From a virus, in the IMG/VR virus record IMGVR_UViG_3300036715_001952, positions 1 through 27,956 of that record: a stretch of DNA of 27,956 nucleotides. One strand, written 5' to 3'. The notes beneath the pieces were generated by a model that was not told the origin of the DNA, did no database searches, and saw only the letters and a list, made by a program, of their open reading frames with translations. Shown one piece after another: positions 22,505-27,030 of this stretch (positions are counted from its first letter, which is position 1; each line of letters starts with the position of its first letter). The position numbers and the translations under genes were made by a program.

Positions 22505-24122
22505 TCATCCACCCCGTAGTTGAAAAGGAATACGTGACGTATTCCGGATTCTTCGCCACCTGCTTCAGGTGACCAGCCCTGGCAACCTCGCGCCCGCTCG
22601 CCACAAGGTAGCGGGTCGTGTCCATCAAGTGATCAAAGTCTTTGACAACCTTGCCCTTATCGTCACGTCGATACATGCGGAATTCCGCCAGCCAGTTCTG
22701 GAGGCTGCCAAAGACTTTGATTTTCCCGGTGCTGAGCCCCTGCCAGACCTTGTAGATCCCCGACTCCACCCCGTTGTCGGCTGGCTGAAGCACGAGCCCT
22801 AGGTCCTCGTAGAGGGAGAGAAGCTGGGTGCCATCCGCCTGGGACCGCCCGCGAGAGGCGGGATCAATCACGCCGTTGATCCACGATCCCCGGGCACGGA
22901 TCCCCTGCACGTGGATGATCGGCTCGGCCTGCGAGCGATAATACTCGCTGTAGAGGTAGAGTGTCCCGGTCTCCAGGTCCCACGCACCCCAGATCGCCGC
23001 AGTGCGATTCCACCCGACGTCCAGCGCGAACGCTCTCGGCCAGTAGTCTGGGATCGCAAAGTCCGGCACCACGATCTCGCTCTCGAGCACAGGGTAGATG
23101 GCACCTGACCCGAGCTGCGGGATTCCCTTCGACCGAGCGTCGCGCTGGAAGGGCGGGATCGACTCCCATAGCTCCTTCTTCACTGCGTCGCTCAGATGGG
23201 GCGCATCGTCCCACGTAGCCATGATCACATACTTGCTGGACGCCGGGGCGAGCGGATCCTCCACCGCCGCGTCGTCCTTGAGCCGGCCACCAGGGAGGAA
23301 GTCCAGCACCACCTCGCTCATGCCCTGGAGTGGCGTGAAGGTCAACATCATGATGCCGTCGTTGGTCATCGTGCGGATTAGGCACTCCGTGTGGATCGAG
23401 AGTGGCGGCTCCTCGTCCTCGAGGATCACGTCCTGCTCCGTCCCCTCGAACCCCTTCCGCCCCTGCTCGTAGGACTTGAACTCCACCTGGGAGACTCCAC
23501 CCCACCGACTCGCGACGTAGACCGTAGACACTGAGTCGGCGACACCGCCGCCCGCAGTCACCTTGACAATGGAGTCGTGGGGCAGCATCCCCTCGCCCCA
23601 GTGACCCACCGGCCCGAGGAGTTTGTCCTGCAGGATCTCCCGCACCTTCTGCTGAGTCACGGCGCAGGCCCACGCCTTGATGGGGCGTGTGAACCGCCGA
23701 CCCACCCACCAGTCCGGATAGCGACCTGTGAGGTGAAGCGTCAACTCGTAGAGTCCGACGCCCTCAGTCTTCCCAATGCGGTTCGCCGCCAGCATCAGCC
23801 TCTGCCGATACTTGGCGCCCGCGGCGAAGAACTTCATGTGCTTGACGTAGAGCTCGCGTCGCAGCGGCCCGGTGTCCGGGTAGTAGGTCAGGAACTTCTG
23901 CCGCTTGACCCGGTTCCGCTGCTCCTGCAGCAGGGCGAGTCGTGCCAGCTTCTCCTCCCGTGACCGCTCCACCCGCGCCTCTGGGGAGGGCTGGGCGTTC
24001 CTGATGACTGGGTCATCGCTAAGGAACACAGTCTGTTCTTGGAAGGGCGTGTCCGGCACTGGTCGCAGGGCCTTCGGCGTCTTCGTGGCCCGCGGCTTCT
24101 TAGGGACGATCGCCCTAGGCAT
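22497..24122 (-). CDS. terL: Terminase large subunit
   Basis: The 541-residue packaging motor has a Walker A variant AANRIGKTEG (112-121), a Walker B region DVILEDEEP (231-239, acidic D236/E237) and a coupling motif TFTPLQG (261-267). The nuclease half has ALDVGW (D368), VIDPA (D420) and an Asp-rich DFDHLMDTTRY (495-505), giving candidates for the three metal-binding acids. The first 75 residues are basic and Pro-rich and precede the ATPase. It cuts and pumps genome DNA into the procapsid through the portal. Start ATG 24122 lies inside the end of terS (8-nt overlap). Confidence 0.9.
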   Translation of the reverse strand: MPRAIVPKKPRATKTPKALRPVPDTPFQEQTVFLSDDPVIRNAQPSPEARVERSREEKLARLALLQEQRNRVKRQKFLTYYPDTGPLRRELYVKHMKFFAAGAKYRQRLMLAANRIGKTEGVGLYELTLHLTGRYPDWWVGRRFTRPIKAWACAVTQQKVREILQDKLLGPVGHWGEGMLPHDSIVKVTAGGGVADSVSTVYVASRWGGVSQVEFKSYEQGRKGFEGTEQDVILEDEEPPLSIHTECLIRTMTNDGIMMLTFTPLQGMSEVVLDFLPGGRLKDDAAVEDPLAPASSKYVIMATWDDAPHLSDAVKKELWESIPPFQRDARSKGIPQLGSGAIYPVLESEIVVPDFAIPDYWPRAFALDVGWNRTAAIWGAWDLETGTLYLYSEYYRSQAEPIIHVQGIRARGSWINGVIDPASRGRSQADGTQLLSLYEDLGLVLQPADNGVESGIYKVWQGLSTGKIKVFGSLQNWLAEFRMYRRDDKGKVVKDFDHLMDTTRYLVASGREVARAGHLKQVAKNPEYVTYSFSTTGWMNG

Positions 24123-24456
24123 CGAGTTCCGCCAGCTTCCGATTCAGCTCCTCGTCCGTCATCTCGGTCACCGGGTCCAGGTTCTCCACCTGCTGACTGG
24201 TGAGCTTCGGGGCGTAGTAGTTCGCACACTGATTGGCGGCGTCCACCCGAGCTTCGAAGTCGGGGTAAATCGTAATTTCGCGATGGTTGCCATCCTCGTC
24301 GGTAGTCATGTGCTCGATGGGCTCGCCTCTCGCGATGCGAAGCAGGAACTCGTGGGGGAGCTCTCCGCTCTCTCGGGCCTTGATGCGCGATTCCTCGGCC
24401 CAGCGGCTCGTCGCCGTCTTGCCCTTCTTCCCGAGTCCTACGTTGCCCATTGCCAT
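24115..24456 (-). CDS. terS: Terminase small subunit (probable)
   Basis: The 113-residue protein is adjacent to and overlaps terL. Its segments ESGELPHEFLLRIARGEPI (29-47), PDFEARVDAANQCANYYAPK (65-84) and LTSQQVENLDP resemble a compact small-terminase family of P22-like phages. It would recognise the packaging start site and regulate TerL. No classical helix-turn-helix is obvious. Two Met codons (24456 and 24450) are possible starts; GAGGG at 24465-24461 lies 4 nt before the first. It is the first gene of the late operon, with a leader of only about 15 nt after the predicted promoter. Confidence 0.72.
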   Translation of the reverse strand: MAMGNVGLGKKGKTATSRWAEESRIKARESGELPHEFLLRIARGEPIEHMTTDEDGNHREITIYPDFEARVDAANQCANYYAPKLTSQQVENLDPVTEMTDEELNRKLAELDA

Positions 24457-24518: not shown

Positions 24519-24587
24519 AACTCCTGGGTTACGTAGAATGTAATTCCTGGGTTACACTGAATGTAATTCCTGGGTTACACTGAATAA
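24519..24587. repeat. 23-bp tandem repeat, three copies
   Basis: Copies lie at 24519-24541, 24542-24564 and 24565-24587, with the core CCTGGGTTAC followed by A(C/G)...GAAT. Copies 2 and 3 differ only at their last two bases; copy 1 has four other changes. The array begins 13 bp upstream of the late -35 box, a usual place for activator sites. Confidence 0.85.
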
Positions 24588-24641
24588 AGTTCGTCGTGGT
24601 TGAGAATGGTGGACCAGCACAGGAACCGCGAGGCCCTAAGG

Positions 24642-24656
24642 GGTGCCCCCGGCACC
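24642..24656. other. GC-rich hairpin between repeat arrays
   Basis: GGTGCC-CCC-GGCACC forms a perfect 6-bp stem with a 3-nt loop in an otherwise A+T-rich region. No U tract follows on either strand, so it is not a clear terminator. It may be a structural or protein-binding element. Confidence 0.45.
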
Positions 24657-24671
24657 GGGCGCCGAATTAGA

Positions 24672-24786
24672 TGTTTGACCATGCATGTTATGACACTGAA
24701 TGTTATGACACTGAATGTTACGACACTGAATGTTTGAACATGCATGTTTGAACATGAAAGTTAGAACACATATGTTGCAACATGCA
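24672..24786. repeat. Array of eight imperfect 14-15-bp repeats
   Basis: Units start at 24672, 24686, 24701, 24716, 24731, 24745, 24759 and 24773. Three are 15 bp of the type TGTTATGACACTGAA; five are 14 bp of the type TGTTTGAACATGCA. The unit at 24773 contains the perfect palindrome TGTTGCAACA. ACACTGAAT is shared with the 23-bp repeat to the left. There are no spacers and no palindromic CRISPR-type repeat. Binding sites for a replication or regulatory protein are the likely meaning. Confidence 0.8.
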
Positions 24787-24973: not shown

Positions 24974-25104
24974 ATGACTACTTACAAGGATTTTACTAAC
25001 GTGGACCATATGAGCAGTTACACATTATAGTGTAGTTGACCAAACCAATGTGTAATGGGGGGACATACCCTGGAACCGCTACAGCCAAAGCACTTAGCTT
25101 TCCG

Positions 25105-25222
25105 TTTTACACATTTACACATTACACTTACTTTTAAAAATAATAATAAAATATATAATAAGGAGGCAGTAGTACATATATATAAGGGTTTGGTTTTAGT
25201 GTAAATGTGTAAATGTGTAAAA
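25105..25222. repeat. Origin-like inverted repeat of 8-bp iterons around an A+T-rich core
   Basis: The right arm (25198-25222) contains three consecutive 8-mers, GTGTAAAT, GTGTAAAT and GTGTAAAA (25199-25222). The left arm (25105-25128) is its reverse complement apart from one missing base. Between them lie 69 bp with about 14 G or C. An 11-bp direct repeat GCACTTAGCTT flanks the whole at 25090-25100 and 25238-25248. More TGTGTAA copies stand nearby (25050, 25265). Iterons flanking an easily melted core are typical of replication origins; a large cruciform or operator is the alternative. Confidence 0.6.
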
Positions 25223-25235
25223 TGTGCTGTAAACA

Positions 25236-25250
25236 GGGCACTTAGCTTGC
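25236..25250 (+). promoter_or_regulatory. Sigma54-like site 1
   Basis: GGGCAC-TTAGC-TTGC has GG-N10-GC spacing and one mismatch to TGGCAC-N5-TTGC; it is followed by A, as in the consensus. It faces the rightward genes. It overlaps the 11-bp direct repeat, so it may instead be part of that element. Confidence 0.35.
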
Positions 25251-25294
25251 ACAACACAAAAACAATGTGTAAAATTCAGTATCGTTGTTTAACT

Positions 25295-25309
25295 TGGCAC
25301 AATACTTGC
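25295..25309 (+). promoter_or_regulatory. Sigma54-like site 2 (perfect core)
   Basis: TTGGCAC-AATAC-TTGC matches the sigma54 core TGGCAC-N5-TTGC exactly, with a pyrimidine before it. It faces right, 300 bp before the first rightward gene. A downstream hairpin or gene start is not evident, so it may be one of several tandem starts. Confidence 0.45.
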
Positions 25310-25382: not shown

Positions 25383-25496
25383 ATCGTGTTGCACTTAACC
25401 ACACTGTGTAGTATTTTGCACCTGCGCCTAACCCTTGCATTTAGGGCACTTACAGGCGTTACGTAATTTATACGTTGCATAAAGCATCATATGCCT

Positions 25497-25511
25497 TGGC
25501 AGTTATATTGC
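25497..25511 (+). promoter_or_regulatory. Sigma54-like site 3
   Basis: TTGGCAG-TTATA-TTGC has one mismatch (G for C at the end of the -24 box) and the correct GG-N10-GC spacing, facing right. Confidence 0.4.
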
Positions 25512-25541
25512 GTAAGTGCTGTAATACCGCAAGTTACATTT

Positions 25542-25556
25542 TGGCACGGCCTATGC
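25542..25556 (+). promoter_or_regulatory. Sigma54-like site 4, nearest the first rightward gene
   Basis: TTGGCACG-GCCT-ATGCA fits the whole -24 box including the following G. It has A for T at the first base of the -12 box. RNA would start near 25568, 44 nt before ATG 25612 and just before the dyad at 25572-25590. Confidence 0.45.
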
Positions 25557-25590: not shown

Positions 25591-25611
25591 CCACTTCCAA
25601 AGGTGCCCACC

Positions 25612-25896
25612 ATGGCAAACATCAAAGCCCCCACCGCCGTCACCGCCGTCGTCACCCCTGCTGCCCCCACCAGCATCCCCGCCATCCCCGCCGTCAAGGT
25701 GCCCAAGGTGGCGCTGGGCACCATCACCGTCTTGGCCAAGGCCAACCCCAAGCGGCCCGGCACCATCGCCTACCGCACGTTCGCCCTTTACACCAACGGC
25801 ATGTCCACCCACGCCTTTATCAACGCTGGCGGTTTTGGCGCGGCGCTGGCCTGGGATGTTAAGCACGGCTTTATCACCGTTACCCCTTCCTACTAG
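25612..25896 (+). CDS. Small conserved phage protein with NPKRPGT motif, function unknown
   Basis: The 94-residue protein has a low-complexity Ala/Pro/Val/Thr start (about 1-35). A compact domain follows: VALGTITVLAKANPKRPGT (36-54), FALYTNGMSTHAFINAGGFG and AALAWDVKHGFITV. The NPKRPG...Y..GM...G......WDV.HG.I pattern occurs in small proteins of many phages. The fold and role are unknown to me; a short DNA-binding domain is possible. ATG 25612 with AAGG 6-10 bases before it is preferred over GTG 25603. It is the first gene of the rightward unit, behind the sigma54-like site at 25542. Confidence 0.65.
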   Translation: MANIKAPTAVTAVVTPAAPTSIPAIPAVKVPKVALGTITVLAKANPKRPGTIAYRTFALYTNGMSTHAFINAGGFGAALAWDVKHGFITVTPSY

Positions 25897-26025: not shown

Positions 26026-26118
26026 ATGGTCAATCTTCTTAGTTTCCGCGCCAGTACCCTTTTCTGCGCCATTATCCTCACCGCCGTTGCTTTCTTCCTT
26101 GGGGGTTTCTGTGTCTAA
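26026..26118 (+). CDS. 30-residue single-span membrane peptide
   Basis: A short frame encodes MVNLLSFRAS followed by an apolar stretch TLFCAIILTAVAFFLGGFCV, enough for one membrane span with positive charge only near the N-terminus (R8). GGGG lies 6 nt before its ATG. Its stop overlaps the GTG start of the next gene by 8 nt. The paralogous locus downstream lacks this insert. It could be a membrane effector or simply a leader that couples translation; the family is unknown. Confidence 0.45.
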   Translation: MVNLLSFRASTLFCAIILTAVAFFLGGFCV

Positions 26119-26509
26119 GTTCCAGCCCATCCCGCCCTCCCTGGGCAACCTCTGCCTCAAGCACGTGCCACAGGTTCCGGCCGCCCAGCTTCAGTTGGGG
26201 CAGCTTCTTCGTAGTGGCTCCAACGATCGGCTCCAACGTGTTAGTGCTGTCTTCTCGCACGTGGTCAGCGCCCTCCCCGGGCTCAACCTTGGCGCAGCCC
26301 TCAGCCCCACCCAGTCCCTCGCACGTCTCGCGCAGGGCTGGCGCATCGTGGAACTCGCTTCTATGGGCTACGTCCGCCATGGGGCTTACCATCAGCCCAA
26401 GCGCATCGTCTACCGCACGTATTGGTGCGATCCCAAGGGCAACATCTTCGTCCCCGCCTCAGGCACTCCCAAGCTCCGCTGGGTCCGCATTGCCCAGCGC
26501 TCTCTCTAA
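26111..26509 (+). CDS. Duplicated small phage protein, copy A, function unknown
   Basis: The 132-residue protein is closely related to the one at 26635. They share MSKF, LCLKHVP, GQLLRSGSN-D/E-RLQ, VFSH, SALPGLN, SPTQ, GWRIVEL, GYVRHG, PKR, TYW-x-DP, IFVPAS and RWVR. The protein is basic and rich in Arg, Leu and Ser, with no membrane span. GTG 26111 is chosen because it aligns with the Met of copy B and has GGGGG 5 nt before it; a longer open frame from 25835 runs through the control block and is not credible. The N-terminus has about 8 extra residues compared with copy B. A DNA- or RNA-binding role is possible but unproven. Confidence 0.65.
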   Translation: MSKFQPIPPSLGNLCLKHVPQVPAAQLQLGQLLRSGSNDRLQRVSAVFSHVVSALPGLNLGAALSPTQSLARLAQGWRIVELASMGYVRHGAYHQPKRIVYRTYWCDPKGNIFVPASGTPKLRWVRIAQRSL

Positions 26510-26624: not shown

Positions 26625-26634
26625 AGGGGTGGTC

Positions 26635-27030
26635 ATGTCTAAATTCCTACCACAAGGTTCAGGCCCTCTGTGCCTCAAGCATGTCCCCGCCAATCCGATT
26701 ATCGGCCAGCTTCTTCGTAGTGGCTCCAACGAGCGGCTCCAGGTCATCACTGGTGTCTTCTCGCACATGATCTCGGCCCTTCCTGGCCTCAACCGGGGCG
26801 TATCCATCAGCCCCACCCAGGCCCAGAATCGGCTCGCCAACGGCTGGCGCATCGTTGAACTCCGCAGCGCGGGCTATGTCCGTCATGGGTTCTACACATT
26901 CCCCAAGCGCAGCGTCAGCACCACCTACTGGCTTGATCCCAACAACCGGATCTTTGTCCCCGCTTCGGTCGCTCCGCCCTTCCGCTGGGTGCGCGTCGCT
27001 CGTCGCAACATCAGCCAACCCACCGCCTAG
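26635..27030 (+). CDS. Duplicated small phage protein, copy B, function unknown
   Basis: The 131-residue protein starts MSKFLPQGSGPLCLKHVP and keeps the shared blocks GQLLRSGSNERLQ, SALPGLNRG, GWRIVEL and GYVRHG, and ends ISQPTA. By eye roughly 60% of residues equal copy A, and some stretches are nearly identical in DNA (around 26705-26745 versus 26200-26240), which indicates a fairly recent duplication. AGGGG stands a few bases before ATG 26635. A longer open frame from 26422 overlaps copy A and the hairpin and is rejected. Divergence is greatest at the N-terminus and after PKR. Confidence 0.68.
   Translation: MSKFLPQGSGPLCLKHVPANPIIGQLLRSGSNERLQVITGVFSHMISALPGLNRGVSISPTQAQNRLANGWRIVELRSAGYVRHGFYTFPKRSVSTTYWLDPNNRIFVPASVAPPFRWVRVARRNISQPTA

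Follow-up and report, generated by a model that had tools for sequence, protein, structure and literature searches.

Inverted iterons around an AT-rich core form a probable replication origin between the early and late genes of a phage genome fragment

The DNA analysed here, referred to throughout as the window, is the whole of virus record IMGVR_UViG_3300036715_001952, a 27,956-bp fragment of an incomplete phage genome. Its late genes, comprising tail, coat, scaffold, portal, terL and a putative terS, run leftward from 24456, and its early open reading frames (ORFs) run rightward from 25603. The large terminase (TerL) shares 58% identity with its EBPR podovirus 1 counterpart. A homologue of the putative terS occupies the equivalent place in the related contigs L004 and L005 (60%), and the first early gene has homologues in L004 (48%) and, more distantly, in L025 and L026. 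Homologues of this early gene also recur in phages with thymine-modification genes like those of the window (L034, L042, L046, L081, L104 and others). Nucleotide-metabolism genes are located at the left end of the window, where an alpha-glutamyl/putrescinyl thymine pyrophosphorylase-like gene, named by its matches to annotated phage genes, is followed in a row by thymidylate-synthase-like and HD-domain-like genes (3-2118) that likely make up a thymine hypermodification pathway. On the early side, the ORFs at 26100-26509 and 26632-27030 look like tandem paralogues of an unassigned family (GWRIVEL..GYVRHG..TYW.DP..FVPAS), and no relative of the second was found in viral contigs. As the initial annotation had stated, no initiator gene is in view in the 28-kb fragment, which has no VapE-domain match; genes for replication are expected to lie in the stretch that the fragment lacks, between its right end and its left end.

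Table 1. Features of the early-late intergenic region and its two boundary genes, in window coordinates.
Feature	Coordinates	Length	Strand	Description
Putative small terminase gene (terS)	24115..24456		-	Bounds the intergenic region on the left; named from its place ahead of terL
Outlying single TTACAC	25018..25023		-	Lone site outside the arms
Outlying single GTGTAA	25050..25055		+	Lone site outside the arms
Direct repeat, copy 1	25090..25100		+	GCACTTAGCTT, exact; its GCACTTAG part is kept in both relatives
Left iteron arm	25105..25128	24 bp	-	TTTTACACATTTACACATTACACT; TTACAC cores (GTGTAA on the - strand) at 25107, 25115 and 25122
AT-rich core	25129..25197	69 bp		14 G/C, 20% GC; includes AATAATAATAAAATATATAATAA and TATATATAAGGGTTTGG
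Right iteron arm	25198..25222	25 bp	+	AGTGTAAATGTGTAAATGTGTAAAA; three GTGTAAA(T) units at 25199, 25207 and 25215
Direct repeat, copy 2	25238..25248		+	GCACTTAGCTT, exact in the window; not kept in relatives
Outlying single GTGTAA	25267..25272		+	Lone site outside the arms
First early gene	25603..25896		+	~95 aa, assigned to no family; bounds the intergenic region on the right

Within the intergenic region, the stretch from 25105 to 25222 forms a 118-bp element in which two mirror-image sets of 8-bp repeats surround an AT-rich core (Table 1). The arms are inverted copies of three GTGTAAAT-type iterons each, with the TTACAC units of the left arm spaced by 8 and 7, and they differ by one 1-bp insertion or deletion. 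The core, presumed to be a DNA unwinding element, overlaps the AT-richest 69-mers of the entire window. This anatomy agrees with the initial annotation, which had described inverted arms of 24 and 25 bp differing by one base, their construction from tandem units, a 69-bp core with only about 14 G/C and a position between divergent early and late arms. The flanking direct repeat that it had also reported is present in two exact copies, but the right-hand copy is not kept in the relatives. A detector that searches for tandem 6-mers facing their own reverse complements across an AT-rich gap picks out this element in the window. Since the same detector finds no match in 200 dinucleotide shuffles of the window or in 2000 local shuffles of the 1.1-kb region, the element is far beyond chance. 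An Rfam search found nothing, and a BLASTN comparison of the region with named phages returned no match. Because the arms carry an indel and the repeats are in register, protein binding fits the structure better than a cruciform or an RNA.

In L004 and L006, two relatives whose TerL is 82% identical, the element is kept in the corresponding gap that separates terS from the first early gene, so that the comparison with related phages proposed in the initial annotation came out in favour of an origin. In a three-way alignment, 22 of 24 positions are invariant in the left arm (92%), 18 of 25 in the right arm (72%) and 41 of 69 in the core (59%), compared with 24-36% in the flanks; the arms are therefore under the strongest constraint. 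The inner TTACAC and GTGTAA hexamers stand 66-71 bp apart, and the core is kept AT-rich and near-constant in length. The relatives that carry the element are short contigs without an initiator, and searches with TerL, portal, the first early protein, a later early protein and a left-end gene yielded no longer contig with the element. More distantly, no copy is visible in L008 (TerL 55%), nor was one seen in the named TerL relatives CV-1-33, ct2G2228, ctype202, ctRVW222 and EBPR podovirus 1, which have other annotated replication genes. In L007 (TerL 63%), the gene for an NrS-1-type primase-polymerase, which includes a DUF3987 part, has inverted GTAGATA iterons downstream of it in an intergenic region close by, a further point in favour of an origin. 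L034 has the hypermodification genes and the first early gene in common with the window; it codes for a DUF3854-DUF5906 primase-helicase, and no matching element was seen beside this gene. In L026, where a homologue of the first early gene follows terS, inverted GCGTAACAC repeats lie just past that homologue.

The same alignment bears on whether the host initiator DnaA could be the protein that acts at this site. The DnaA box TTWTNCACA is matched by the outer repeats TTTTACACA, a AATAATAATAA tract resembles DnaA-trios, and the element or its immediate surroundings hold three of the four perfect boxes present in the 28 kb. In L004 and L006, the arms contain no such boxes even though their GTGTAA units remain, and the spacing is set by the 8-bp iterons rather than by 9-bp DnaA boxes. 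Since the boxes are not conserved in the arms of relatives, the DnaA-dependent reading fails and is considered very improbable.

The bare DNA pattern, blind to gene content, was used to scan 2.9 million viral contigs and bacterial genomes. The viral scan returned eight stretches, of which two belong to the window family, two fall in apparent coding sequence (L019 and L023) and four come from other phages. In two of these phages (L018 and L024) the element is directly 3' of a BT4734/PriCT-2/VapE primase-helicase gene. In a third (L021) it lies between a DUF3854-DUF5906-VapE-like primase-helicase gene and a divergent terS-like/terL pair, a setting as in the window, and in the fourth (L020) the element is present and no initiator is visible. 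The bacterial scan gave a single match on a proteobacterial contig (L027), where GTGTAACT iterons are found directly 3' of the gene for an 826-aa Toprim primase, the position that the element also has in L160; the C-terminal part of the primase reads as helicase-like from the sequence, with Pfam reporting only Toprim. A primase gene of the VapE/DUF5906/Toprim kind thus abuts the element in three of the four independent non-coding contexts from these gene-blind scans. A last, looser pattern scan returned known loci only.

The DNA that leads from the element up to the first early gene has features of its own. Sigma54-like -24/-12 motifs (TTGGCAY-N5-WTGC) are located at 25294-25309, 25496-25511 and 25541-25556, all pointing towards the gene, and they are the only ones in the 28-kb window at up to one mismatch. 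Two of the three are exact, a result matched in 0 of 5000 local shuffles. Comparable motifs are present in L006 (182-196) and L004 (851-865), and L008 has four within 180 bp (1483-1662) at the equivalent place, a pattern suggestive of early promoters of the sigma54 type, arranged in tandem, in this lineage.

The initial annotation had named a phage origin or a master switch as expected at this place, and the position of these motifs bears on the second. As an operator or enhancer for the early-late switch, the element would have a phage regulator bound to its GTGTAAAT arrays to control divergent terS and early transcription, with the core serving as a loop or promoter region. Its place between divergently transcribed gene blocks is consistent with such a role, as are weak sigma70-like matches in the core (five in the region against 2.8 in shuffles) and the frequent autoregulatory use of iteron sites. 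However, the best promoter-like motifs, the sigma54-like ones at 25294-25309 and 25541-25556, lie outside the element, making a master switch less likely, and the L018 and L027 elements lie directly 3' of a replication gene rather than between divergent promoters. Nor does an operator need symmetric arms and a 69-bp core of 20% GC. Regulation as the sole function is therefore judged unlikely, and an operator role in addition to an origin is possible.

Turning to the terS side, tandem repeats just upstream of this putative gene consist of 2.8 copies of a 23-bp unit and 6.8 copies of a 15-bp unit (ATGTTATGACACTGA) at 24522-24585 and 24671-24768; they are possible terminase or regulator sites, and L004 and L006 carry other repetitive sequence at the same position. 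The 118-bp element adjoins the putative terS as well, and it could be conceived as a packaging start (pac) or a place where the neighbouring TerS binds, or as a structural site of some other kind, for instance for partition, in a region where other tandem repeats approach terS still more closely. Those 15- and 23-bp repeats at 24522-24768 are nonetheless the better candidates for packaging, pac sites do not usually consist of iterons around AT-rich DNA, and the elements of L018 and L027 have no neighbouring terS. A packaging or partition function is accordingly given the least credence of the explanations weighed here.

Inverted iterons of other sequences were found by eye in the gap 3' of VapE in most of the named phages and satellites examined. 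Within AT-rich DNA of this gap, the repeats are GTTACC in Streptococcus phage CHPC1282, GTCTACA in Streptococcus phage Javan640, TGATGGTACA in Streptococcus phage phi20c, ACTGCAACA in Paenibacillus phage Bloomfield, TGATGCAACA in Staphylococcus phage phiSa2wa, GGTAAGAA in satellite Javan228 and CGGCTACAC in satellite Javan344. Flavobacterium phage mymlan6-2 has inverted GTTACC iterons one gene further on, and Septimatrevirus UF_RH5, ECO1230-10 and PPpW-3, which have related primase-helicases, showed no such iterons. GTGTAA as a universal VapE iteron was rejected, most VapE phages having other iterons. The sequence-blind detector, run at one strict setting that misses several elements plain to the eye, recovered such an arrangement at 3 of the 18 VapE loci that were sampled (92 kb) and at none of 123 control loci (1.56 Mb). 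As a separate observation, GGGTTT or its complement, a motif picked after looking, is present in 6 of 13 independent origin-like cores, where shuffles give 0.9. These sites are at 25186-25191 in the window and in the cores of L112, L124, L172, L128 and L007, and offer a lead to a possible priming site.

Among characterized systems, the origins of phage-inducible chromosomal islands (PICIs), including staphylococcal pathogenicity islands (SaPIs), share the layout of the window element (SaPIbov1 and EcCICFT073; PMC6092414), although its iteron sequence is its own. PICI origins with this layout replicate plasmids in published tests (PMC6092414). They lie immediately 3' of the rep gene, as the L018 and L027 elements lie 3' of theirs, whereas the window element stands between terS and the 95-aa early gene; PICIs are also satellites that borrow a capsid, whereas terL and genes for portal, scaffold, coat and tail are all present in the window. 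Since the layout is shared but the position 3' of an initiator and the satellite nature are not, the element is viewed as working like a PICI/SaPI origin without being filed as a member. SaPI Rep, which apparently acts as two hexamers, recognises its iterons through a C-terminal domain; the D5-type self-loading helicase Cch2 of SCCmec binds iterons likewise (PMC7581432). The putative SCC origin, unlike the window element, has just three short direct iterons and no inverted arrays around an AT-rich core (PMC7581432).

CHPC1282, a relative of Streptococcus thermophilus phage Sfi21, resembles the window in having inverted iteron pairs that surround AT-rich DNA of the AATAATAAAATATAT type beside a gene for a VapE-type helicase. 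It differs in its iterons, its longer core, its location directly 3' of the helicase gene and its occurrence in an unrelated phage. This stretch of CHPC1282 may be the counterpart of the Sfi21 origin-like element. A further comparison is offered by the NrS-1 primase-polymerase and its TTTGGTTA sites (PMC8718748, PMC7102993), given that the relative L007 encodes an NrS-1-type enzyme. The TTTGGTTA site is absent from the window core, which has TTTGGTTTTA, a near-match only that may be due to chance, and the enzyme is not seen in the window.

Taken with the conservation in relatives, the identical iteron element beside primase-helicase genes in unrelated DNA, the like layout 3' of VapE in named phages and satellites and the published PICI tests (PMC6092414) support the origin proposed in the initial annotation. 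The element is probably the DNA replication origin of the phage, of a bipartite iteron type, and a primase-helicase whose gene is in the part of the genome that the fragment lacks is a somewhat favoured candidate for its initiator. Such a phage-coded protein, of the D5/VapE/DUF5906/DUF3987 or NrS-1-like class, would bind both inverted GTGTAAAT iteron sets through a DNA-binding domain and assemble on the arms as two facing helicase rings. The rings may then melt the 69-bp AT-rich core lying between them, from which two divergent forks would start. Evidence against an origin is that no initiator is in view, that the element adjoins terS and a small gene rather than replication genes, that L008 shows no copy and that some phages with related primase-helicases lack such iterons. 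The GC-skew check suggested in the initial annotation also went the other way, since cumulative skew shows a local maximum near the element instead of a minimum and the GC skew itself turns negative to its right, opposite to the usual pattern, a weak indication in that the skew covers a fragment only. A more tentative extension is that the GTGTAAAT iterons are convergent or exchanged and are used by unrelated initiators. The origin in this podovirus lineage might then have become detached from its initiator gene and been set in the early-late divide beside terS and sigma54-type early promoters, an arrangement that would couple replication with packaging and with early transcription.

The layout has been described as exclusive to phage-inducible islands and satellites; the phage cases found here bear on that claim and hence on the source of satellite replicons. 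Their precedence is uncertain, as an origin-like non-coding element is already known for phage Sfi21 (PMC6356513) and the literature surveyed comprised papers available without subscription. For most environmental phages, origins are unknown. This anatomy, which a simple sequence-blind detector can find and which predicts the initiator class, may allow origins to be assigned in metagenomic phages without cultures.
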